A stretch of DNA of 64,000 nt from contig JACZWU010000005.1 of the NCBI GenBank assembly GCA_022571985.1, positions 186,001-250,000 of the forward strand, given 5' to 3'. The DNA comes from Candidatus Zixiibacteriota bacterium (lineage in GTDB: Bacteria > Zixibacteria > MSB-5A5 > GN15 > FEB-12). Below, piece by piece: positions 7,165 to 21,721 of the stretch (the stretch's first letter is position 1; the number at the start of each line of letters is the position of its first letter). Below the pieces are notes generated by a model. The model made no database searches and had not been told where the DNA came from. It saw nothing but the letters and a program-made list of their open reading frames with translations. The translations under genes were made by a program, and so were the position numbers.

Positions 7165-8475
7165 ATGAAAAAGAAAATACTGATATTTGGATCGATTGGG
7201 ATCGTGGCAGTGGCGCTGCTTGTCATGAGCCTGATGTCTAACAATGAAGACAAAGTAAAAGTCACCTCTGCCGAAGTCGAAAGCCGCGACATAATCGAGA
7301 TAGTTTCAGCTTCCGGCAGAGTTGAACCAAAGACCAAAGTTGATATAACCGCACAAATTAATGGCGAGATAGTCCGGCTGGCCGTCAAAGAAGGTGACCC
7401 GGTATCGATGGGAGACCTTTTGATAGTCCTGGACACAGTACAACTTCGCTCAGATGTAAATCAGGCAAAATATAATTTGAATGAAGTCAATGCCAGGCTT
7501 GAAGGTGCTCGCGCAACATTGGAGCAGGCCAAAGATGAATATGACCGCCAGCAGAGACTCTTTGATAAGTCCCTTACATCCCAAACCGCCTATACCGACG
7601 CCAAATACAGATACCTGAATGCCAAATCAACAGAAAAAGCAACGGTTGCCCAGTCGAAGCAGTCACAATACAGATATGAAAAAGTAATGGACAATCTTGG
7701 TAAGGCTACGATTGTTGCTCCGATGAACGGCGTGGTTACTTTCGTTGATTGTGAAGTTGGTGAGATCGCCCCTGCCCAAACCGGTTTTAACCAGGGCAAA
7801 ACTTTGATGACAGTTTCAGATTTGAGCCTGTTTGAAGTTGAAGTAGAGGTTGATGAGACAGAAATCAATAAAGTGCAGTTAAATCAGGAAGTTGAGATTG
7901 AAGTGGATGCGTTTCCTGACACTACTTTTGCCGGAACAGTTGTTGAAATTGGCAATACTGCTGTTGTCAGTCGTGCCGGAACACAGGATCAAGCCACGAA
8001 TTTTAGAGTAATGGTAGTTTTTGCTGACAGCGACGTCTCAGTACGACCGGGCATGTCCGCGACAGTTGACATTACTACCAGCAGACGTGAAGAGGCTGTC
8101 TCGGTTCCTTTTAGTGCAGTGGTCATGCGTTCATTTGATATGGATTCACTCCTGGCGGCCAGGGAACAAAGACAGTCAGCCGGCACAACTTTGGTTAACG
8201 AAGTTAACGCTGCCGAAAACGGTGATCTGGACGAAGACAAGCCTAAGAAAAAAAAGGATGTTGAGCGCAAGGATTTGCGTGGTGTTTTTGTAATAAAAGA
8301 TGGGAAAGCTCGGTTTGTAGAAATTAAAACGGGCATTGCGGATCAGAAGTTCATTGAAATAACTTCCGGTCTGGAGCCGGGAGACTCTGTAGTAGCCGGT
8401 CCTTATAAATCATTAAGAAAAATCAAAGATGGCGACGCCCTTGAAGTACAAAAAGATGAAGAGGATAAAGAATAA
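7165..8475 (+). CDS. HlyD/MacA-type periplasmic adaptor (membrane fusion protein)
   Basis: The 436-residue adaptor joins an inner-membrane ABC permease to an outer-membrane channel. One N-terminal membrane anchor spans about residues 5-25. The first half of the lipoyl domain follows (GRVEPKTKVDITAQINGEIV, VKEGDPVSMGDLLIVLD), then a coiled-coil hairpin at about 95-175 and the second lipoyl half (ATIVAPMNGVVT). A beta-barrel and a membrane-proximal domain end the protein. A charged low-complexity insert (about residues 350-375, with KPKKKK) interrupts the C-terminal part. The stop codon directly abuts the ATG of the ATPase gene, indicating translational coupling. Confidence 0.93.
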   Translation: MKKKILIFGSIGIVAVALLVMSLMSNNEDKVKVTSAEVESRDIIEIVSASGRVEPKTKVDITAQINGEIVRLAVKEGDPVSMGDLLIVLDTVQLRSDVNQAKYNLNEVNARLEGARATLEQAKDEYDRQQRLFDKSLTSQTAYTDAKYRYLNAKSTEKATVAQSKQSQYRYEKVMDNLGKATIVAPMNGVVTFVDCEVGEIAPAQTGFNQGKTLMTVSDLSLFEVEVEVDETEINKVQLNQEVEIEVDAFPDTTFAGTVVEIGNTAVVSRAGTQDQATNFRVMVVFADSDVSVRPGMSATVDITTSRREEAVSVPFSAVVMRSFDMDSLLAAREQRQSAGTTLVNEVNAAENGDLDEDKPKKKKDVERKDLRGVFVIKDGKARFVEIKTGIADQKFIEITSGLEPGDSVVAGPYKSLRKIKDGDALEVQKDEEDKE

Positions 8476-9159
8476 ATGGCTCTTATAGTAACCAAAGATG
8501 TCTGGAGAACTTATGATATGGGGCATGAAAAGGTTCATGCTCTGCGGGGAGTCTCTATAGTAATTGAAAAGGGAGAATATGTTGCCATAATGGGACCATC
8601 TGGTTCCGGCAAATCGACCCTGATGAATCTCATAGGCTGCCTGGATACTCCCTCACGAGGGGACTACTATCTTAACAACAAAGCTGTCAACACTCTTGAT
8701 GACGATGAACTGGCTAATATAAGAAACCGTGAGATAGGATTTGTTTTCCAGACGTTCAATCTCCTGCCCAGGGCTACATCGCTGCACAATGTAGAGCTGC
8801 CTCTGATATACAACGGAACATCTACTGAAGAGAGAATTATCAAAGCCAAAGAAGCCCTGGCAAAAGTTGATTTAGAAGACAGAATAACTCACAAACCGAA
8901 CGAACTTTCCGGAGGGGAAAGGCAGAGAGTTGCTATCGCACGCGCGCTGGTTAATAATCCTTCCTTGATTCTGGCCGACGAACCGACCGGTAACCTTGAC
9001 AGTAAAACCTCAGAAGAGATTATGAGACTGTTTGACAAGCTGCATTCGCAGGGAAATACAATAATTACTGTCACCCACGAACAGAGTGTCGCCAGCCATG
9101 CCCATCGGATTATATCACTATTTGACGGTGAAGTTGCCAACGATAAGAGAATCAATTAG
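8476..9159 (+). CDS. MacB/LolD-type ABC transporter ATP-binding subunit
   Basis: The 227-residue ATPase has Walker [10 protein letters not shown] at residues 40-48, the Q-loop in [10 protein letters not shown], the signature LSGGERQ at 144-150, and Walker B ILADEP at 165-170 with the GNLD D-loop. This is the subfamily that powers MacB- and LolCDE-type mechanotransmission permeases. The ATPase is a separate polypeptide rather than fused to the permease as in E. coli MacB. It starts immediately after the adaptor stop and is followed 18 bases later by the first of three permease genes, for which it is the only ATPase nearby. Confidence 0.96.
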
Positions 9160-9177
9160 CAAAGCGGTAAACTTGAA

Positions 9178-10398
9178 ATGATCGGTTTTTCAATATTAGG
9201 CATAGCGGCAAACGCAATAAGAGCCAATAAACTAAGGTCTTCGCTGACACTTTTGGGCATAGTCTTTGGAATGGTCTCTGTAATGACCATTATATCGGCA
9301 CTTGAAGGTATGATGGGGGCGATTGAAAAAGATATTGGTCGTTTGGGTCCTTCAACATTTATGGTTGCTAAGATGATGATTGCAACTTCCGATGAGGAGT
9401 TTTTTAAGAAAATAAAGCGCAAGCCGATTGATCTTAAGTCTGCAGATCTCATTATCAACGAATGCAACCTATGCGAAAAAGTTTCTCCCAGAGCTTTTTC
9501 ACGCGCCCGGTTTAAGTATGGTTCTGATTATATTCGTGACGGCCGAATCATGGCCGGCACTTACAGTTTTATTGATATTGTTGATATGGAAGTGGCCCAG
9601 GGGAGATTCCACTCGATGGAAGACGATTTACACAGGAGTCAAGTTGTGATGATTGGCGATGGTGTCAGAGAAAAACTGTTTTCCGGAGTTGATCCGATCG
9701 GAAAAACTTTAAGAGTTGGCAGCAAGAAATATACGATTATAGGTATCGCCAAGAAGTTTGGCTCCATGTTTGGCAATGAGCGTGACAACTTTGTGGTCAT
9801 GCCTCTTTCTACATACGGCGCCCATTTTGGACAGCCGCGCTGGGGGCTGAATATTGTTATCAAGGCCCGTTCAGTAGAGAAGTTAGAAGACGCTATGGAC
9901 GAAGTCAGGCTGCTTTTAAGGTCGCAAAGAGGCGTTGCCTATGACGAAGAAGATGATTTTGACATTATGACTGCTGATATTTTTTTGGAGCTGTTTAATT
10001 CAATTACCAAGGTATTTCGGATGGCCCTGGTAGGAGTTTCATCAATTTCCATAGTAGTTGGCGGAATTGTGGTCATGAACGTAATGATGGTGGCGGTTTC
10101 CGAAAGAACCCGCGAGATAGGAATACGCAAAGCAATTGGCGCCAAGCAAAAACATATACTGTTGCAGTTTTTGTTTGAGTCATTGATACTCACTTCCAGC
10201 GGCGGACTGGTAGGTATGTTAATCGGCTATTTGTTGGCAAAATTCCTGGTTGGAATGATAGGCATGGAGATTTCCCCTTCGGCCATAGCTATTATAGCTG
10301 GACTATCAATCTCTATGGGCACAGGATTAATTTTCGGAATTTACCCGGCACTTAAAGCAGCTAAGCTTGACCCTATTAAGGCGCTGAGTTTTGAATAG
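9178..10398 (+). CDS. MacB-type ABC permease (first of three)
   Basis: The 406-residue protein has the MacB architecture: one N-terminal membrane helix (about 18-42, in the LRSSLTLLGIVFGMVSVMT segment), a large periplasmic domain (about 45-275) and three C-terminal helices of the FtsX domain. The cytoplasmic coupling segment SERTREIGIRKAIGAK and the terminal FGIYPALKAAKLDPIKAL motif are family hallmarks. It is clearly more divergent from the next two permeases than they are from each other. It probably works with the ATPase immediately upstream. The ribosome-binding site is weak, consistent with coupling to the preceding gene. Confidence 0.93.
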   Translation: MIGFSILGIAANAIRANKLRSSLTLLGIVFGMVSVMTIISALEGMMGAIEKDIGRLGPSTFMVAKMMIATSDEEFFKKIKRKPIDLKSADLIINECNLCEKVSPRAFSRARFKYGSDYIRDGRIMAGTYSFIDIVDMEVAQGRFHSMEDDLHRSQVVMIGDGVREKLFSGVDPIGKTLRVGSKKYTIIGIAKKFGSMFGNERDNFVVMPLSTYGAHFGQPRWGLNIVIKARSVEKLEDAMDEVRLLLRSQRGVAYDEEDDFDIMTADIFLELFNSITKVFRMALVGVSSISIVVGGIVVMNVMMVAVSERTREIGIRKAIGAKQKHILLQFLFESLILTSSGGLVGMLIGYLLAKFLVGMIGMEISPSAIAIIAGLSISMGTGLIFGIYPALKAAKLDPIKALSFE

Positions 10399-10406
10399 GT
10401 TGCAAT

Positions 10407-11657
10407 ATGCTGTTATCTCCTGTTGAAATAAAAAATGCCGTGATGATGGCTCTTGGTTCACTGATGAGCAATAAGTTCCGCTCATTTCTGACAATCCTTG
10501 GCGTGATGGTAGGCGTTGGTTCGGTAATATCGATGGCCGCAGTAATTGACGGCCTTGACAATGCAGCCAAAGATGAAGTAGACAGGATGGGCACTAATAT
10601 CATAACGGTCAGGAAATTTGCCCCCGGCACTGACTGGGATAATCTTAGCGATGAAGAGCGCAAGCGTCCGGAAATGTCTGTAGGCGAAGCTGAGGCAATA
10701 TTGGCGAATTGTCCTACTGTCGATGGTGTTGCCCCAAGGAATCACTTTTATGCACTTGGCGGGAATGAAGCAAAATATAGAAACCGCACTTTTAACAGAC
10801 CGCTGGTGATGGGGACCTGGCCGGATTATATGAAGGTCAGAGACAAGAATATGGAGACAGGCAGATTCTTTTCTGAAATAGATCTCCAATACAGGTTAAT
10901 GGTTTGTGTTCTTGGTGCATCAGTCGCTGATCTGTTATTTCCGAATCAAAATCCGATTGGCCGGGAAATCAGGGTCAATGGCGATAAGTTTCTGGTCATT
11001 GGAGTATTGGAACGTGTAAAGTCAAATTTTGGTGAGGACTCTGACAATACCTACGTGATAATGCCTCTGACTACTTTCGAAAAACTGATGCCACAGGACA
11101 AAGCTCTAACGCTGGAATGCAGGTCGAGGAGTTTTGAAGAAATCGATAAGGCAATTGAAGAAGTTACAACTGCATTAAGACTGTATCGCAAAGTTCCTTT
11201 CAATAAAGAAAATAATTTTGCGCTTTCGACTCAGGAACAGTTTAAGGACGAGATAAACAATATTACCAAGTATATTTATTTGGGCATGGGAGTTATTACT
11301 TCGATTGGTCTGATGGTCGGCGGTATTGGCGTCATGAATATAATGCTGGTTTCTGTAACTGAGCGCACCCGTGAAATAGGGGTCAGAAAAGCTATCGGGG
11401 CCAAGCGCTCGAATATCATAATGCAATTTCTGACCGAAGCCATGACGCTTTCCGCGACGGGGGGAGTTGTAGGCATTTTGGCCGGAATATCTCTGGGAAC
11501 CGGGGTAAATCTTCTGCTCGGGTTTCCTCTGTCAGTTTCTCCATTTTGGATAGTTCTCGGCTTTACGGTATCCGTCTCTGTGGGACTTGTTTCAGGTATT
11601 TATCCCGCCATAAAGGCCTCAAAACTCGACCCCATTGAATCTCTGCGCTATGAATAG
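10407..11657 (+). CDS. MacB-type ABC permease (second; tandem paralogue A)
   Basis: The 416-residue permease has an N-terminal helix in the NKFRSFLTILGVMVGVGSVI segment, a periplasmic MacB domain and three FtsX-type helices with the TERTREIGVRKAIGAK coupling element and the end motif GIYPAIKASKLDPIESL. It starts 8 bases after the previous permease. It has the same length as the next gene and aligns with it along the whole sequence without gaps, most closely in the C-terminal 150 residues. Having two or more permeases suggests either a heterodimeric pore, as in LolC/LolE, or a duplicated exporter specificity; the sequence does not decide which. Confidence 0.93.
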   Translation: MLLSPVEIKNAVMMALGSLMSNKFRSFLTILGVMVGVGSVISMAAVIDGLDNAAKDEVDRMGTNIITVRKFAPGTDWDNLSDEERKRPEMSVGEAEAILANCPTVDGVAPRNHFYALGGNEAKYRNRTFNRPLVMGTWPDYMKVRDKNMETGRFFSEIDLQYRLMVCVLGASVADLLFPNQNPIGREIRVNGDKFLVIGVLERVKSNFGEDSDNTYVIMPLTTFEKLMPQDKALTLECRSRSFEEIDKAIEEVTTALRLYRKVPFNKENNFALSTQEQFKDEINNITKYIYLGMGVITSIGLMVGGIGVMNIMLVSVTERTREIGVRKAIGAKRSNIIMQFLTEAMTLSATGGVVGILAGISLGTGVNLLLGFPLSVSPFWIVLGFTVSVSVGLVSGIYPAIKASKLDPIESLRYE

Positions 11658-11776
11658 ACAAATTGCTTGACTATCTTAAATCAAGCATTGCTTTGATTGA
11701 ATTTGGAACTGAGAAAACTGTCTTTAGTATTAGATTTAGTAATAATGAAATATCAAAGGATCTGTTTTAGACTATT

Positions 11777-13027
11777 ATGCTGCTCTCTCCGGTAGAATTA
11801 AAAAATTCCGTATTGATGGCGCTGGATTCTTTACGGGCTAATAAGTTTCGCTCATTTCTGACTATTCTCGGGGTGATGGTCGGGGTTGGCTCGGTCATCG
11901 GCATGGCATCGGTAATCGATGGCTTAAACAATGCGGCAGAATCCGAAGTTGACAAAATGGGCTCAAATATCATTAGTGTGAGCAAGTTCAAACCGGGAAC
12001 AGACTTTGACAATCTTACAGAAGAAGAACGCAGACGTAAGCCTATCACAGTAGGCGAAGCGCGGGCGATTTTGGATAACTGTCCCAGTGTTCAGGGTGTT
12101 TCTCCCAGAAACTACTATTTTAAGCCCGGCGGGAATGTAGCTAAATATCTAAATAGAAAATTTAACAATCCGTATTTTCTCGGAACCTGGCCGGACTATG
12201 TCTCCGTACAGGATAAAGAGATCTCATCAGGCAGATTTATTACAGAAACTGATCTGCAAAACAGGCTGATGGTCTGTGTAATCGGTGCTGACATAGCGGA
12301 AGTACTATTTCTGCAGAGTACGGCCATAGGCAAAGAAATTCGGTTTAATGGAGATAAATTCCTGGTTGTAGGAGTTATGGAAGATGTAAAGTCCAATTTT
12401 GGTAATGACTCGGAAAACAGATATGTGATGGTACCTTTGACAACTTACCAAAAACTGATTCCCTGGGAAAAAGAACTGGGGCTGGACTGTCGCGCCGAGA
12501 GCTTTGACAAAATCGATGTCGCCATAGAAGAAATTACGGCAGCACTGCGAGTTTACCGCAAGGTTCCATTTGAAAAAGAAAACAACTTCGCTTTGTCGAC
12601 TCAGGAGCAGTTTAAGGACGAGATAAATAATATTACCAAGTATATTTATATGGGTATGGGAGTCATTACCTCGATTGGCCTTTTGGTTGGCGGTATTGGC
12701 GTTATGAACATAATGCTTGTTTCTGTCACCGAGCGCACTCGTGAAATTGGAGTCAGAAAGGCTATCGGGGCCAAGCGTTCAAATATTATAATGCAATTTC
12801 TGACCGAAGCCATGACGCTTTCCGGAACCGGTGGTATCGCGGGGATTCTGGCCGGGTTGTCTTTAGGAATAACAGTTAATCTGCTGCTCGGCTTTCCGCT
12901 GTCAATTTCTCCTTTCTGGATAATTCTCGGCTTTACAGTGTCCGTCTCGGTAGGACTTGTTTCAGGCATATATCCCGCCATAAAAGCCTCAAAACTCGAC
13001 CCGATTGAAGCTCTGCGCTACGAATAA
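11777..13027 (+). CDS. MacB-type ABC permease (third; tandem paralogue B)
   Basis: This 416-residue permease is the duplicate of the preceding gene: both begin MLLSPVE(I/L)KN and end with the same ASKLDPIE(S/A)LRYE tail. The periplasmic domains have diverged (for example residues 64-170), while the FtsX segment is nearly identical, including synonymous positions. A 119-base gap without a clear terminator separates the two, so they may share a transcript. It lacks its own ATPase and would use the one at the head of the cluster. It is followed about 100 bases later by the GWxTD gene. Confidence 0.93.
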   Translation: MLLSPVELKNSVLMALDSLRANKFRSFLTILGVMVGVGSVIGMASVIDGLNNAAESEVDKMGSNIISVSKFKPGTDFDNLTEEERRRKPITVGEARAILDNCPSVQGVSPRNYYFKPGGNVAKYLNRKFNNPYFLGTWPDYVSVQDKEISSGRFITETDLQNRLMVCVIGADIAEVLFLQSTAIGKEIRFNGDKFLVVGVMEDVKSNFGNDSENRYVMVPLTTYQKLIPWEKELGLDCRAESFDKIDVAIEEITAALRVYRKVPFEKENNFALSTQEQFKDEINNITKYIYMGMGVITSIGLLVGGIGVMNIMLVSVTERTREIGVRKAIGAKRSNIIMQFLTEAMTLSGTGGIAGILAGLSLGITVNLLLGFPLSISPFWIILGFTVSVSVGLVSGIYPAIKASKLDPIEALRYE

Positions 13028-13125
13028 ATCTGCTTGCTTATTAGTCAGCTTTTTGTTGAACTGAACTGCGCCCGGTAATAGATTGGAACCGTAGCGTTTG
13101 AGTTTAGTTAAATTAAGTAGGCGTC

Positions 13126-14475
13126 ATGTTTTTCATGAAATACACATTTTTACCACTGGCTCTGCTAACTGCCATCATTCTGTTTTCTCCTGTCCTGTCT
13201 CAGGGGGATTATGGATCACTATTTCTGGATAAAAACCAGCGCGAAATCAAAGTGGATTACGCAGCCTTTGCGATTGAAGACTCCAGGCAGATGCGTCTGG
13301 AGGTCTATTATCAGGTTTATAATAGTTCCCTGGCTTTTAAAGAAGAAGGAGATCTTTTTGTAGCTTCTTATGACATAAAAATAACAGTAATGGACAAACG
13401 CGGCCGCCGTCTTAAAGACGAAAAGAGAGAGAAAACTATTACAGTCGCTGATAAACGGGAGGCCCTCTCCGGCACCAGTTACCGTACCAGTCAAATAAAC
13501 TTCGTACTTGACCCGGGCAGGTACGATGTCCGGTTTGTTCTCAACGACCACTACGCCAAGAAAAGCAACATTAAGAAAAAGGAATTTCAGGCAAAACTTA
13601 AAGATGTCAGCAAGGGTAAACCAAAACTTTCCAATATCCTGTTTGCTCAGGCGGTAGGACCGCTCCAGGATAATTCTGAATTGTTTGCCAAAGGGGATAA
13701 AGTGGTAATTCCCTCAGTAACGCATTATTACGGGGGCGGGGAAGACAAAGATAACAAGTTACTTTATTATCTCGAAATTTATCCCGGTTCTGATGGTCAG
13801 ACTAAGGCCACAGTCCAGACGCTGATAAGAAAGAGAAAGGGAAAAATGGTCTACCGGGATACCCTTACTTCTCTTTTGGAGAAGCCATTTGCGAGGCAGA
13901 TAAGAGAGATTTCCGTAGACGGCTTTGAGCCGGGAGAGTATGAAATTGAAATTGAGCTTAAAGGAGCCCGGGGCAAGAAGTTCGATAAGACAAAGGGGAA
14001 ATTTCATATCAGATGGAACGAGGAATCGCTGCTGCAGCATAACTATGATGTTCTGCTCAACCAGATATCTCTTATCGCCTCACCCAAAGATGTCAAAGAA
14101 CTAAAAAAGGCAAAATCTCTCGAAGAGAAAAAAGCCGCTCTCGATAGTTTCTGGAAATCAAAAGACCCGTTCCCTGAAACTTCAAGAAACGAATTTAGAG
14201 CCGAATTCTATAGCAGGGTCAGGCTGGCTAATGCCAATTATGGTTACCTGAGACGGCAGGGTTGGGAAACTGACCGGGGGCGCATTTTAGTAAGATATGG
14301 CATACCCGACCAGATTGAAGATTACCCCTTTGCGCTGGAGACTTATCCTTCGCAGATCTGGCATTATTATCGAAAGGGAAGGTATCGCAGGTTTGTCTTC
14401 GTCGATGACAGCCACGACGGCGACTATCGCCTGCAATACCCTTATGACGGGTTAGGAATCAACCCCGACTTTTGA
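13126..14475 (+). CDS. GWxTD-domain secreted protein
   Basis: The 449-residue protein has a signal peptide ending near PVLSQG, a beta-rich middle region and a C-terminal GWxTD domain: GWETDRGRILVRYGIPDQIE at about residues 382-401, then IWHYYRKGRYRRFVFVDD. This domain is largely confined to FCB-group bacteria and relatives, and its function is not established. The Met at 13126 is used, though the second Met three codons later could also start the protein and gives an equally good signal peptide. It follows the export operon and may be co-transcribed with it. The region after its stop holds a decayed copy of the same C-terminal domain. Confidence 0.85.
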   Translation: MFFMKYTFLPLALLTAIILFSPVLSQGDYGSLFLDKNQREIKVDYAAFAIEDSRQMRLEVYYQVYNSSLAFKEEGDLFVASYDIKITVMDKRGRRLKDEKREKTITVADKREALSGTSYRTSQINFVLDPGRYDVRFVLNDHYAKKSNIKKKEFQAKLKDVSKGKPKLSNILFAQAVGPLQDNSELFAKGDKVVIPSVTHYYGGGEDKDNKLLYYLEIYPGSDGQTKATVQTLIRKRKGKMVYRDTLTSLLEKPFARQIREISVDGFEPGEYEIEIELKGARGKKFDKTKGKFHIRWNEESLLQHNYDVLLNQISLIASPKDVKELKKAKSLEEKKAALDSFWKSKDPFPETSRNEFRAEFYSRVRLANANYGYLRRQGWETDRGRILVRYGIPDQIEDYPFALETYPSQIWHYYRKGRYRRFVFVDDSHDGDYRLQYPYDGLGINPDF

Positions 14476-14736: not shown

Positions 14737-15471
14737 TTATTTGCCGGGTTTCTTCGAAGCAGTCCTGGCCGCGGCAGCTAATTTTCTTTTGACGGGAATG
14801 GTAAATCTGCTCTTAACTTCGTCGCTTAACTCGAAAGTAAATGATTTTTCAAAAGACTTTCTCAGAACTTCTTTGCGCAGTTTAACTTTGGCCTTTGCCG
14901 CTTCGCCGGCTTTGATTTTTTTAGGAAGATCCACTTCAAAATATTCGCTGGCATAGGAAATCATTTTTATCTTCAGATCCTCGTCGGATACGTTTCTGAT
15001 TTCAAAACTCATATTGTCTATCTGCTTGGAGCCTGTTTGAGACAAATCAATTTTGTATGGCCTCATGATCACAGGATAGGTGGAATCAGGCCGGGTAACG
15101 ACATTCACCGTAATTGATACGAATTTGTCCGGAGGTCCTTCATTAGTCTGAATTTTGGGACGCTTGGTTATTTTGGTCCGGTATTTCTTTGAACTGAAAA
15201 TTATCTCTAATTCTGTGCTGTCACCGACAGCAAGCAGGTCCTTTTGTAAAGGAGCCTTGGTGCAGCCTCAGCCAGGGATTATTTTAAGAATCTTGAGAGT
15301 GTCATCGCCCGTTGAAACCAGCCAAAATTTGTGGCTGATTGTAGAGTTCTGAGGGACATAGCCAAAATTGAACTCTTTGACAGGTATTGTCAGCCTGGGC
15401 GCAGCCATTGCAACAGATGCAATGAGCAAAGTCAAAACTGCTGTCAAAACAATCGTTTTAGTATTATTCAT
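14737..15471 (-). CDS. DUF1573 periplasmic protein with in-frame UGA at a family Cys (candidate selenoprotein)
   Basis: The frame runs about 244 residues if the UGA at 15270-15268 is read through. The start ATG has GGAG 9 bases upstream; a TTG and another ATG lie just before. A signal peptide (ending VAMAAP) precedes the DUF1573 beta domain. The upstream paralogue reads PGCSCTRAPL where this gene reads PG-UGA-GCTKAPL, so the UGA replaces the first Cys of the CxC motif. The 175 codons after it are intact and align with the paralogue (VGDSTELEIIFSSKKY, KIQTNEGPPDK). Two hairpins follow the UGA. Selenocysteine, a recent nonsense mutation (TGC to TGA) or an assembly error are the options. It is last in a three-gene operon; its length matches its relatives (235 and 249). 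Confidence 0.7.
15216..15270 (-). promoter_or_regulatory. UGA codon with two downstream hairpins (possible SECIS)
   Basis: After the UGA the transcript can form TCCTTT-ACA-AAAGGA (15253-15239) and then TGCTGTC-GGT-GACAGCA (15232-15216), a perfect 7-bp stem with a GGU loop. The GGU loop resembles the loop of the E. coli fdhF element, but it lies about 42 bases after the UGA, beyond the usual bacterial distance of roughly 16-37. The nearer hairpin has no loop G. GGT GAC AGC also encodes a conserved Gly-Asp-Ser, so protein constraint alone could explain the stem. Confidence 0.3.
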
Positions 15472-15538
15472 ATTCATATACTCCAATATATTACTTCGTC
15501 CGCCAGGCTGTCAAATATTAGTTTTTTTCCTGACAAAA

Positions 15539-16288
15539 TCAATTATCAAAATAATCAATAATTCTCGTTACCGGTATAGTGAATCGGCTGCCAAAATCAT
15601 CACTGAGCCTGATTGTAAAGGACTTCTGAAAAGATTTTCCAATCGAGTCTTTCAGGAGCCGGATCTCTGCGGTTATGGTTTCACCCGCCTTGATTTCGAC
15701 CGGCAGGTCAATTTCAAAATAGCCGTCGGGTAAGGAAACAAGTTCGAGCTTTAAATTTTCCTTTGAAACGTTTTTGATAGAAAACTGCTTTTTATTTACC
15801 TGCCCGGAATCGCTTGTCGGAAAAGAAATCTTAAACGGCTCTATGATTACCGGAAAAGTTGAGTCGGTCTTTGCTAAAACGTTGGCAATGATTTTGAGGC
15901 TTTTGTCGGGCGTGTTCTCGTTGGTCTGAATTTTCGGACTTTTCTCAACCCTGTTTCTGAAGCTTTTAGTGCTGAATATGATTTCTACTACGGTACTGTC
16001 GCCGGAGGCCAGTTTATTTTTTTTGAGCGGAGCTCTGGTACAGCTGCAGCCGGGGATTATCTGCTCTATTATGAGAGTATCGTCGCCTGTGGATAGCAGC
16101 CAGAATCTGTGAGAGACCAGCGAGTGCTGAGGTACATAGCCAAAGTTGAAGACTGTTTCCGGCAGGGTTAATCTTGGCGACGACAAGGCCGCTGTGGCCG
16201 AGAGGCCAATAATTAAGACCGCCAAAACCAATATTTTATATAATTTTTTCAAGCTGGTTTTCTTTTCTTCATTCAGACAATTATACAA
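15539..16288 (-). CDS. DUF1573 periplasmic protein (middle gene of three)
   Basis: The 249-residue form starts at a TTG two bases after the stop of the preceding gene. An internal TTG at 16252 gives a cleaner signal peptide (KKLYKILVLAVLIIG, then TAALSSP) and may be the true start. The DUF1573 domain has the GYVPQHSLVSHRFWLLSTGD strand pattern and the motif PGCSCTRAP near residue 80. It ends in a second beta domain. DUF1573 proteins are exported Ig-like domains with a CxC motif; their role is not known, though metal or thiol chemistry is often supposed. It is the closest relative of the UGA-containing gene that follows and serves as the reference for it. Confidence 0.85.
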   Translation of the reverse strand: MYNCLNEEKKTSLKKLYKILVLAVLIIGLSATAALSSPRLTLPETVFNFGYVPQHSLVSHRFWLLSTGDDTLIIEQIIPGCSCTRAPLKKNKLASGDSTVVEIIFSTKSFRNRVEKSPKIQTNENTPDKSLKIIANVLAKTDSTFPVIIEPFKISFPTSDSGQVNKKQFSIKNVSKENLKLELVSLPDGYFEIDLPVEIKAGETITAEIRLLKDSIGKSFQKSFTIRLSDDFGSRFTIPVTRIIDYFDN

Positions 16289-16290
16289 TT

Positions 16291-16998
16291 TTATTCAGCT
16301 TTGCTGCCATAGAATTTCCGGCGAATAGGGATAGTCAGATAATTTCCTTGCCCGTACTTAAAATCTACTGTAAATGAGCTTTTGAACTCTTTGTCAACGA
16401 ATTCGGGCAGTAGTTTAGCATAACCGAAAGCCGAACCTCTGGCAGGTACAGTTTCCGGCATGAAGATAATGCATTCAGCCGGTAACTTAGATATAATTTC
16501 CGGATAAAAGATCTGGTCGGTAGCATTGATAATTCTAAACTCAAGACTATCGATCGACATTTCGCGGATTCGGCTCATTTCAAACTTAAACGGCCAGATA
16601 CTTCCTGAAAATGCAGAATCAAGAGATAGCAGGACGTTGGCCTTAAGTGATATTCTCAAAGGCTTAGCTGAGCCATTGCTGTAGATTAAGGGATATCTTT
16701 TTATAGGACCCGTAGCCCGTTCTGTATTCCAGGAGATTTTCACGTAGGTGGAATCACCCGGGGCGATCTTATCGGATTCAAGCGAGCTGACAGCGCAGCT
16801 GCAGCCGGTCTTAATTTCTGAGATGGTGACTGTATCAGTGCCGGTCGATTTTAGCCAGAAGCTGTAGATTATATCGGAGTTTTGAGTTGTCAGCCCGAAA
16901 TCGAATTTTTGGCCGCTGCTCTCCAATTTCGGCTGTGAAAAAGCGTTAGTACACAGAACCGAAATAGCGACCATCGTAAGTAAAGGAAATCTTCTCAT
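16291..16998 (-). CDS. DUF1573 periplasmic protein (first gene of three)
   Basis: The 235-residue protein has a signal peptide (PLLTMVAISVLCTNAFSQ) followed by the DUF1573 domain: FDFGLTTQNSDIIYSFWLKS, the motif TGCSCAVSS and the PGDST loop. It is more distant from the other two than they are from each other. It heads a minus-strand operon: the next gene starts two bases after its stop. The region upstream (about 100 bases) separates it from the FAD oxidase on the same strand. Three adjacent copies indicate repeated local duplication; all keep a CxC motif except the UGA variant. Confidence 0.87.
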   Translation of the reverse strand: MRRFPLLTMVAISVLCTNAFSQPKLESSGQKFDFGLTTQNSDIIYSFWLKSTGTDTVTISEIKTGCSCAVSSLESDKIAPGDSTYVKISWNTERATGPIKRYPLIYSNGSAKPLRISLKANVLLSLDSAFSGSIWPFKFEMSRIREMSIDSLEFRIINATDQIFYPEIISKLPAECIIFMPETVPARGSAFGYAKLLPEFVDKEFKSSFTVDFKYGQGNYLTIPIRRKFYGSKAE

Positions 16999-18526: not shown

Positions 18527-19426
18527 TCAACGTTTTAGTAACATCTCGATATACTTCCTGTGACCTTCAAAGAACATAGTGCAATAATATATCCCATCAG
18601 GAACAGCCAGTTGATAATTATTAGTACCATTCCAGGTAAATGAACTTATACCGGCCAGATAATATTGACTAAAATCATACACTACTTGTCCTGAATCATT
18701 AGTTATTCTAAATCTGACATTGGACGCAAAAGGTATCGCAAAGGGAATAACAGTTTCGTTGCTGAATGGATCGGGACTGTTCTGACCTAAAACAAATTCG
18801 GTTTGCAGTAGGCTGGCGTTGACAGGCTGGCCTTCATATGTGGCCATTTCAAGTGATACCACTTCGCCGTACACTTCGAGGAAGTCACCTGTAAACCAGT
18901 CGCCATGGTACGACCACAACAGAATTCTGGTGTTTTTTCCGTCATAAGCATATTCTATATCCATATTGTCAGTCATTCGCTGAATTGACCTATTTCCGGC
19001 TACTACCACGAGAACAGCGCCAATTCGGACATCATCAAGCACCTTCAATACGCCTCTTCTTTCGTCATAAGTGTAACTAACTTCCAGAGGAGTGATTATC
19101 GAGTAAGGTAGGGCATCTCCGATAACGATTCGTGATAAATGTACAAGGTCGGCCACCGTCAAATTCAAGCCATCTCTATTGACGTCGGTTGTGGCGATCT
19201 GAGACTCCCTTTCAATGGTGAACACGGTCAGGCCATAGACGAAGTAGTTACTGAACAAAACAGCATCGGCTACCTCATTAGCAATACCGTTTATATTTAC
19301 ATCTCCAGGTTGAAATTTCGGTTGGGGAGGACCGATAACTTGGGTTTTATCAGAACAGCTTCCCAATATTAACATGAGAGCAAATACTAAAATAGAAAGC
19401 GTAAATTTTTGGAGGGCGCCTAACAT
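18527..19426 (-). CDS. Dockerin-type lipoprotein with C-terminal sorting-like domain
   Basis: The 299-residue protein has a lipoprotein signal (LMLILGSCSDK) and a pair of dockerin-type Ca2+-loop repeats at about residues 40-110: GDVNINGIANEVADAVLFS and TDVNRDGLNLTVADLVHLS. A middle beta domain follows. The last 85 residues match the FlgD-like/type IX-type sorting pattern: FVLGQNSPDPFSNETVIPF, then VRFRITNDSGQVV, FTWNGTN and PDGIYYC, ending in Lys-Arg. A lipid anchor together with a sorting-like C-terminus is an odd combination. It lies directly downstream of a larger protein with the same parts and probably arose from the same architecture. Confidence 0.82.
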   Translation of the reverse strand: MLGALQKFTLSILVFALMLILGSCSDKTQVIGPPQPKFQPGDVNINGIANEVADAVLFSNYFVYGLTVFTIERESQIATTDVNRDGLNLTVADLVHLSRIVIGDALPYSIITPLEVSYTYDERRGVLKVLDDVRIGAVLVVVAGNRSIQRMTDNMDIEYAYDGKNTRILLWSYHGDWFTGDFLEVYGEVVSLEMATYEGQPVNASLLQTEFVLGQNSPDPFSNETVIPFAIPFASNVRFRITNDSGQVVYDFSQYYLAGISSFTWNGTNNYQLAVPDGIYYCTMFFEGHRKYIEMLLKR

Positions 19427-19480
19427 ATTGAAATTTAATCCTTAATCTCTTTTTTCAAAGGCATTTTTGGAATATTCAGC

Positions 19481-21721
19481 CTATTTCAGCAAAATCATTT
19501 TTTTCGACGAGACAAAATCTCCGGCGGTAATTCTGTAATAATAAACACCGCTGCCAACGGTCTGTCCCAAATTCGAGCTGCCGTCCCAGTAGATGGTATG
19601 AGAACCAGCGGAGTATCGATTAGTAACGTTGTAAACTAACTGACCCAGAATATTGATAATTTCGAAACTGACTTCCGAGGCTCTGGGCAAATCGAATTTG
19701 ATAGTAGTCTCAATGTTAAAAGGGTTGGGGTAGTTGTTATAAAGGGCAAATTCGGTCGGCAGGTTGTCCGGGTTGTCAGCAATATCCGTGCTGATATCAA
19801 TGACAGAATTTACCTTGGCGCCCATATTGGTAGCAGTATGAGCTTCAACAAGCTGACCTGAACCGGAGTAGCTTATCAGCGGCCCCGGTGATATGAAGAT
19901 AGAATCGGCAGGACGAAGTTTTCGAGGATAGATGAGCATTTTGGTTTGTCCGTTATCAAAATTGTGAACAACATGAAAATTTGTGTCAATAATAGCTGGA
20001 GTGACCTCCCCATCAAAAATCAGCCAGACTGCCCCAAGAGAGTCGACAGTATTGACACTAATCATTTGTGAAGAATTGTTCTGTTGAAAAGTAGCGATAT
20101 TAGACGAAGTAGTATCAAAGTCTACGGCGCACGAAGGACCGCCAATAAGATGCGTTGACATAAAAACGAAGTCTTCAATTGTCAAAAAGATGCTGTCGAG
20201 ATTCACATCCGTATTATATATCTGCTTATTCGGGTCTTTTGTAAATACCTGCTCTCCGTTCAAGAAATAGTTACTAAATATGACCCAATCTGCAATTTCG
20301 CAGGAAAGACCATTAAGGTTTATATCACCCATATCAAGAGTGATTCTGCAATTTCTTCCGAAACCACAATTGAAATAATAGGTAGAAATCTCATGTCCCC
20401 ATAGATTCGAAGCCTGTGATCCGACAAGATCTCCTTTACCTTCGTAGTCAAAGAGAAACAGTGAGCCGGAATCAACTGCGCCGTATGCCGCGACAATAAC
20501 CCGGGTGTATACTCCGTCATAATCGCTATTAAAAATATAGTCCAGATTCTCATTTTCAGGCGTTATCTCACCAAAAAATTTGAGCCATAGCACCGGAATT
20601 TGTGTTTCTGTGTCGAGATAAATTGACTTAGTATCACGGTCATTGACAATGTAATTGTCACCGTAAATAGTGATGTCGTTTGTTGAATCAGGGTCAAGTC
20701 CTTCAACACGTATTCTTGCAAATTGAATTAAGTCTTCTAATTTCAGAGACTGTCCGTCCTTGTTGATATCGGTCGCGGCAATCTGCTTATTTGGATTGAT
20801 TTTAAAAGCAGAAACACCTCTATAGAAAAAACTGGCAAATAGTGCGACGTCATGCACGCTATATGGAAACCCGTCAAGATCAATATCCCCGACCGAAAAT
20901 TGACTCTCGTCACATTTTATGTACACACCGCCGTTGTAGAAATTGATCAACGGTAAAAGAGGATAATTTGAATTTGAGTCTTTATAGCAAGTATCTGCCG
21001 GGCCACTTAAGGAAGGAAAAGTATCAGTAGGCTGAATTAATTGACTACTACTATAAACTCCTTTGGCGGCAGCTAGCTTTTGGTTAAATTGTGGTCCTTC
21101 AGGATCATTGAACGAAATCGCGTTATCACCGCAGTCATACCAAATGAATTCGACAGGAACAAATGCGCAAGTGGAGTCTATATTTTCGGAAATTGAAAAC
21201 TTTAACGTAAAAAAATCTGCTACCGTATTAGGATTAAAGCAGAGCGGATGATGACAGCAGACGTTGGTTTCAGCAATACCAACGACTCGGATTGCTCCGT
21301 TCGGACAGTAGTTTGGGCCGCAATACGACGAAGAGTCATAGTATCTGTAGTTAAAGTATTCCCATTCACAATAGCCATCGGCATAAAAAAGAGGACCTTC
21401 TTCAACATCGACAAATTGCATAATCGAGTTATCGAAATTCATGAGAAAATCGAAGCCGTACATATCATAAGGCGAGTAGTTGAGCGTTACCGGTAAGTAA
21501 ATTATTGACCCGGGTTCAACATCATAAACCGTCCCTATTTCAATTACAAAATTGCTGTCTGATGATGACGAATTTGACCCCAAAGAACTGCCGGGCAGAT
21601 TCTTAAACTGGGACTGGATAAAATTATAGAAATCGCTGCTATCGTTGTCTGCCAAGGCAGAATGCGAGAACAATGAAAACGTTAAGATTAGGACGACTGC
21701 AGAAATAGTAAGAAACTTCAT
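19481..21721 (-). CDS. Large secreted protein: cohesin-like domain, two dockerin pairs, C-terminal sorting domain
   Basis: The 746-residue protein has a signal peptide (ending near HSALAD). About residues 50-235 read like a cohesin-type beta-sandwich (PGSIIYLPVTLNYSPYDMYG, FDNSIMQFVDVEEGPLF). Two dockerin-type regions follow near 272-345 (GDIDLDGFPYSVHDVALFA, TDINKDGQSLKLEDLI) and 462-540 (GDINLNGLSCEIADWVIFS, TDVNLDSIFLTIEDFV), each followed by a beta domain. The C-terminus from about 652 is the FlgD-like/type IX-type sorting domain (NNYPNPFNIETTIKF, GSGVYYYRITAG, KKMILLK). This points to a secreted or surface-attached structural or adhesive protein. No catalytic domain is visible. Confidence 0.85.
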   Translation of the reverse strand: MKFLTISAVVLILTFSLFSHSALADNDSSDFYNFIQSQFKNLPGSSLGSNSSSSDSNFVIEIGTVYDVEPGSIIYLPVTLNYSPYDMYGFDFLMNFDNSIMQFVDVEEGPLFYADGYCEWEYFNYRYYDSSSYCGPNYCPNGAIRVVGIAETNVCCHHPLCFNPNTVADFFTLKFSISENIDSTCAFVPVEFIWYDCGDNAISFNDPEGPQFNQKLAAAKGVYSSSQLIQPTDTFPSLSGPADTCYKDSNSNYPLLPLINFYNGGVYIKCDESQFSVGDIDLDGFPYSVHDVALFASFFYRGVSAFKINPNKQIAATDINKDGQSLKLEDLIQFARIRVEGLDPDSTNDITIYGDNYIVNDRDTKSIYLDTETQIPVLWLKFFGEITPENENLDYIFNSDYDGVYTRVIVAAYGAVDSGSLFLFDYEGKGDLVGSQASNLWGHEISTYYFNCGFGRNCRITLDMGDINLNGLSCEIADWVIFSNYFLNGEQVFTKDPNKQIYNTDVNLDSIFLTIEDFVFMSTHLIGGPSCAVDFDTTSSNIATFQQNNSSQMISVNTVDSLGAVWLIFDGEVTPAIIDTNFHVVHNFDNGQTKMLIYPRKLRPADSIFISPGPLISYSGSGQLVEAHTATNMGAKVNSVIDISTDIADNPDNLPTEFALYNNYPNPFNIETTIKFDLPRASEVSFEIINILGQLVYNVTNRYSAGSHTIYWDGSSNLGQTVGSGVYYYRITAGDFVSSKKMILLK

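Follow-up and report, generated by a model that had tools for sequence, protein, structure and literature searches.

The window analysed here is a 64,000-nucleotide stretch of a Candidatus Zixiibacteriota genome. It holds three tandem genes of the DUF1573 family on its reverse strand, the last of which (hereafter the Sec gene, for selenocysteine) has a TGA codon within its reading frame. The features discussed below are as follows.

14737..15477, reverse strand: predicted selenoprotein gene (two-domain DUF1573), from ATG at 15477 to TAA at 14739–14737; Pfam, structural model with pLDDT 92.6
15217..15231, reverse strand: SECIS hairpin 2, GCUGUC-GGU-GACAGC; near-invariant alignment, compensatory pair in family f12
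15232..15258, reverse strand: SECIS hairpin 1 region, variable and covarying; MFE, synonymous shuffling and covariation
15268..15270, reverse strand: in-frame UGA, first position of the U-G-C-T motif; aligned homologues
15403..15477, reverse strand: N-terminal Sec-type signal peptide, ending at about AMA/AP; sequence, cleavage site placed by eye
15539..16288, reverse strand: tandem Cys paralogue (PGCSCT) without a SECIS; groups in the tree with the Sec genes of its genus
16291..16998, reverse strand: third tandem DUF1573 gene (TGCSCA), of an older Cys-only lineage; matching clade in the tree

The product of the Sec gene is 246 residues long; U is residue 70, and 176 codons follow the UGA. The gene contains this single in-frame TGA, reading PG-UGA-G-C-T-K-A-P-L against PG-C-S-C-T in its neighbour. 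The sequence-only reading had put the TGA (15270–15268, reverse strand) where the neighbour has the first Cys of PGCSCT, followed by about 175 intact codons; aligned homologues confirmed the position, which in the family is the first Cys of a C-x-C motif, and our count agreed with the length. Its view that UGA is not globally reassigned was also borne out, the neighbouring DUF1573 gene ending in GAT AAT TGA and hisS in GGG TGA. Against Pfam DUF1573 (PF07610) the product scored 79.4 bits, above the gathering cut-off of 26.1 bits. Past the UGA, with the SECIS excluded, dN/dS was 0.08, 0.10 and 0.15 between the Sec gene and its three closest relatives, giving strong support for intense purifying selection on the codons downstream of the TGA.

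An AlphaFold model of the product (pLDDT 92.6) consisted of an N-terminal helix (residues 3–23) and two Ig-like beta domains, with U70 and C72 in the loop after strand 61–67 of the first domain; the first Cys/Sec column and C72 were invariant in the alignment. Fold matches of the model were generic Ig/ASH domains, the PDB held no sequence relative of the protein, and a plasmid search returned no homologue of the gene. The protein shares its family assignment and Ig-like fold with DUF1573 (PF07610) and the HYDIN-VesB-CFA65 Ig-like domains (PF22544); the resemblance to ciliary proteins of the latter group is structural and implies no shared function. As a signal peptide is present, the product is predicted to be exported, and we infer a periplasmic location. 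Judged from the motif, Sec70-Gly-Cys72 is probably a selenol/thiol redox pair or a metal-binding pair.

Gene context pointed to no function: many families had MacAB/TolC-type transporter and GWxTD genes convergent with the gene, and others had lexA beside it. The MacA/MacB/TolC-type and GWxTD-domain genes (7165–14475 in the window; L189–L203) were conserved convergent neighbours at 9–11 of the 16 loci compared. At L196, L200 and L203 (families f5, f9 and f19) the DUF1573 cluster and a lexA-like gene are transcribed divergently, and L203 also has a dinB-like gene nearby; at L197 and L201 lexA again lay near the cluster. Elsewhere in the window (18527–21721) lie two genes whose products end in FlgD-like/type IX sorting domains; the larger also has a cohesin-like domain.

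The sequence-only reading had seen no selenocysteine genes in the window; a check of the source genome (2.93 Mb in 17 contigs, with Candidatus Zixiibacteriota MAGs as its close relatives) for selA, selB, selC (tRNA-Sec) and selD found all four. On contig 3, selA (406.8 bits) adjoins selB (342.5 bits over residues 2–577 of 581), and the tRNA-Sec lies about 11 kb from them (71.3 bits; called SeC with anticodon tca by ARAGORN); selD, on contig 10, itself has a frame with one in-frame TGA, at CAG-U-AS. With these four genes, the organism has what it needs for decoding Sec. SelB was above the search threshold in 90 of the 100 genomes with a Sec gene (87 of 97, plus three f12 genomes, all SelB-positive). 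The ten genomes with a Sec gene and no complete SelB were mostly fragmented assemblies, several with SelB fragments, and included one rated 100% complete (G127).

In a protein search of 132 Zixibacteria genomes, 71 from the order had an orthologue whose match contained a TGA, and a covariance model built on the RNA that follows the UGA added 29 further genomes of the class with the same gene type; in the source genome the only strong match of that model was the Sec gene. Thus 100 of the 132 genomes carry TGA at the Sec/Cys column of the homologue, which is far beyond chance. All 77 genes extracted from the order had the TGA in the same codon, that of the Cys column, and 65 Cys-type genes had TGC or TGT there, so that UGA and Cys do alternate at this position. 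Among the matches listed, nearly all genes had no other stop within the match. A sequencing error at the TGA is untenable, as about 100 independent assemblies carry it.

A SECIS is present downstream of the UGA and is selected at the RNA level in both of its hairpins. All 76 aligned genes had the same layout (UGA, 11 to 14 nt, hairpin 1, hairpin 2), and the Cys paralogues generally had neither hairpin. Hairpin 2 had the consensus GCUGUC-GGN-GACAGC (6 bp, mean MFE −8.2 kcal/mol), its loop beginning with GG in every case and lying 42 nt past the UGA in all aligned genes; the earlier figure of about 42 bases for the GGU loop proved exact. At the five codons of this hairpin the major-codon share in Sec genes was 0.95 against 0.56 elsewhere, and the same comparison in Cys genes gave 0.52 and 0.52. 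At the position where most Cys forms carry Pro, Sec genes have Val (GTC), which allows the hairpin 2 stem to form. In family f12 a G-C pair has become A-U (GCUAUC-GGU-GAUAGC, with Val changed to Ile); given the high conservation, this one event in one clade is the sole compensatory change.

Hairpin 1 varied in sequence. In most relatives it read GC[U/A/G]CC...GG[A/U/C]GC, and in the Sec gene of the window these canonical pairs are partly broken and a shifted register pairs instead (AGG-CCU and UCCUUU-ACA-AAAGGA). We used a per-gene synonymous-codon test for the hairpins in place of single-sequence folding, which gave no significance for the Sec gene region (z −1.18), and of RNAalifold, which did not pick hairpin 1 because the register drifts between species. 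The synonymous-shuffle z for hairpin 1 was −3.1 in Sec genes and −0.2 in Cys genes, with mean MFEs of −9.6 versus −3.1 kcal/mol, and distant families outside the set that defined the hairpin gave −9.8 kcal/mol and z −3.0. Pairing held in 90.4% of cells, compared with 28–61% when the hairpin was slid, and the pair 18–35 was UA in 39 genes, AU in 10, GU in 9 and GC in 8. The loop starts about 20–27 nt past the UGA and often begins with G.

Like the bacterial SECIS (bSECIS) of the E. coli formate dehydrogenase type, this element lies within the coding sequence past the UGA and has a G in a small apical loop. It differs in having a second, covarying hairpin ahead of the conserved one, and in spacing: the bSECIS model allows 16–37 nt from the UGA to the apical loop (PMC13188914), a range that the loop of hairpin 1 would fit and that of hairpin 2, at 42 nt, exceeds. 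It differs too from the element in selD of the same genome, an ordinary single SECIS-like hairpin at about +20. The long spacing resolves the earlier doubt over the SECIS: the poor fit to the published model was real, and a conserved SECIS is present nonetheless. No SECIS family in Rfam matched the region after the UGA. A long pairing of GCUGCACC with GGUGACAGC, seen in some minimum-energy folds, was rejected as unconserved: in 36 of 77 genes UGAGG is followed by A.

We take the gene, at a probability of about 95%, to encode an exported DUF1573 selenoprotein, with Sec inserted at codon 70 through SelB and the two-hairpin mRNA element downstream. The original proposal of Sec at the family Cys is thus supported by the machinery, the UGA/Cys alternation, the conserved SECIS and the lack of pseudogene decay. 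Were the gene instead a pseudogene or a frozen nonsense mutation, the UGA would end translation, as it does in the neighbouring gene and hisS, and the remainder would be decaying. The sequence-only reading had named extra stops and relaxed dN/dS in relatives as signs of decay; the ratios of 0.08–0.15 after the UGA mark it as no pseudogene, the same TGA recurs in 100 species with almost no other stops among the matches listed, and the RNA downstream has evolved in a stem-preserving way, all of which leaves this explanation hardly credible. Reading of the UGA as an ordinary amino acid, by near-cognate suppression or reassignment, would suit a gene with just one such codon, but is very improbable when UGA terminates other genes and here falls solely at a family Cys, when the genome has complete Sec machinery, and when a hairpin with a SelB-type GGN loop follows.

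The sequence-only reading had known of no described DUF1573 selenoprotein, and on this point the literature corrects it: reviews from 2022 and 2026 list pfam07610 as a selenoprotein with the motif UGC, both citing Zhang & Gladyshev 2007, the Olavius symbiont study (PMC9312934, PMC13188914). The corresponding NCBIfam family, OS_HP2 (NF041425), likewise combines DUF1573 with Sec as the first residue of a U-G-C motif; it was reported from a deltaproteobacterial worm symbiont, whereas the Zixibacterial branch has the motif PGUGCTKAPL and scores under the NCBIfam cut-off. A search with the OS_HP2 model also brought up a second DUF1573 selenoprotein family (L204–L218, for example L209, L215 and L217), with TGA in a GSUGCTAAV-type motif, at twelve examined loci in eleven Zixibacterial genomes; two genomes from other phyla had it as well. 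Its genes are longer (open frames of about 370–420 aa), fall short of the OS_HP2 cut-off of 100 bits with scores of 82–96, and have a hairpin at about +40, usually UUCCCC-CGGGN-GGGGAA, with another hairpin before it.

This second family bears on two further alternatives. Hairpin 1 could be the SelB-binding SECIS and hairpin 2 an accessory, as the loop of hairpin 1, about 20–27 nt past the UGA, falls inside the published range; we consider this unlikely, since the loop sequence is free (ACA in the Sec gene) and the register drifts, while hairpin 2 is near invariant and the second family keeps the distance of hairpin 2 with an unrelated stem. Invariance and the GGN loop favour hairpin 2 as the probable SelB-binding site. 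The Sec gene could also be a plain member of the known OS_HP2/DUF1573 subfamily, the reviews already listing DUF1573 with UGC (PMC9312934, PMC13188914), the aligned Sec genes having UGCT at the U-G-C motif, and all 60 aligned members matching NF041425 weakly. We find this rather doubtful: the Sec gene scored 69.4 bits where the curated cut-off is 100, none of the 386 genomes searched reached that cut-off, and the other Zixibacterial family (SUGCTAAV) came closer, at 82–96 bits. Because of this shortfall (69 versus 100 bits), we treat the Zixibacterial genes as a separate, phylum-wide branch. No joint mention of Zixibacteria and a DUF1573 selenoprotein was found in the literature searched, which lay mostly outside subscription journals, so that this absence is weak evidence of novelty. 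Apparently undescribed are the phylum-wide branch under the family cut-off, its SECIS of two hairpins at +42 and the repeated switching between Sec and Cys.

That switching was seen in a quick, unrooted tree of 161 sequences, in which the Sec label needed 22 changes, at least 14 of them forced by strongly supported branches. Cys copies were scattered among the Sec genes; most were tandem duplicates that lack the hairpins (the Cys-type members, unlike the Sec gene, need no SECIS). The PGCSCT neighbour grouped with the Sec genes of its own genus (support 95). Genes have duplicated repeatedly and apparently reverted from Sec to Cys, probably including this middle paralogue of the window; the direction from Sec to Cys is suggested by the pattern, the tree being unrooted. 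A Cys orthologue in G028 (L051) still had both hairpins, as expected for a recent change from Sec to Cys. Genome G086 gave another such recent case, with near-identical tandem Sec and Cys copies (L101). It also held a divergent DUF1573 gene (L147) that has the TGA in the Sec column but a degraded hairpin 2, and that is possibly decaying or using another signal.

We propose that SelB delivers Sec-tRNA-Sec at codon 70, steered by the two consecutive hairpins directly 3′ of the UGA. Hairpin 1, whose form is kept while its sequence varies, probably folds to absorb the extra length and so holds the distal hairpin, near invariant with its GGN tri-loop and the probable SelB site, within short reach of the codon being decoded. 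After secretion of the product to the periplasm, Sec70 and Cys72 would serve in redox chemistry or metal binding. More broadly, it seems likely that the SECIS of DUF1573 selenoproteins is a bacterial class of its own, a compactable hairpin followed by a distal SelB-binding GGN hairpin at +42, which spans the phylum, recurs in other phyla in the second family and shapes the protein sequence, and that the Zixibacterial Sec copy persists as tandem duplicates repeatedly revert to Cys.

Annotation can easily mistake DUF1573 Sec genes for truncated or broken ones; the present analysis defines an exported selenoprotein phylum-wide, in about three quarters of the sampled Zixibacteria genomes. A well-conserved bacterial SECIS beyond the standard spacing should help prediction tools and raises the question of how SelB copes with distance. 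The many Sec/Cys duplicate pairs would allow the contribution of selenium to be tested in a family of unknown function.
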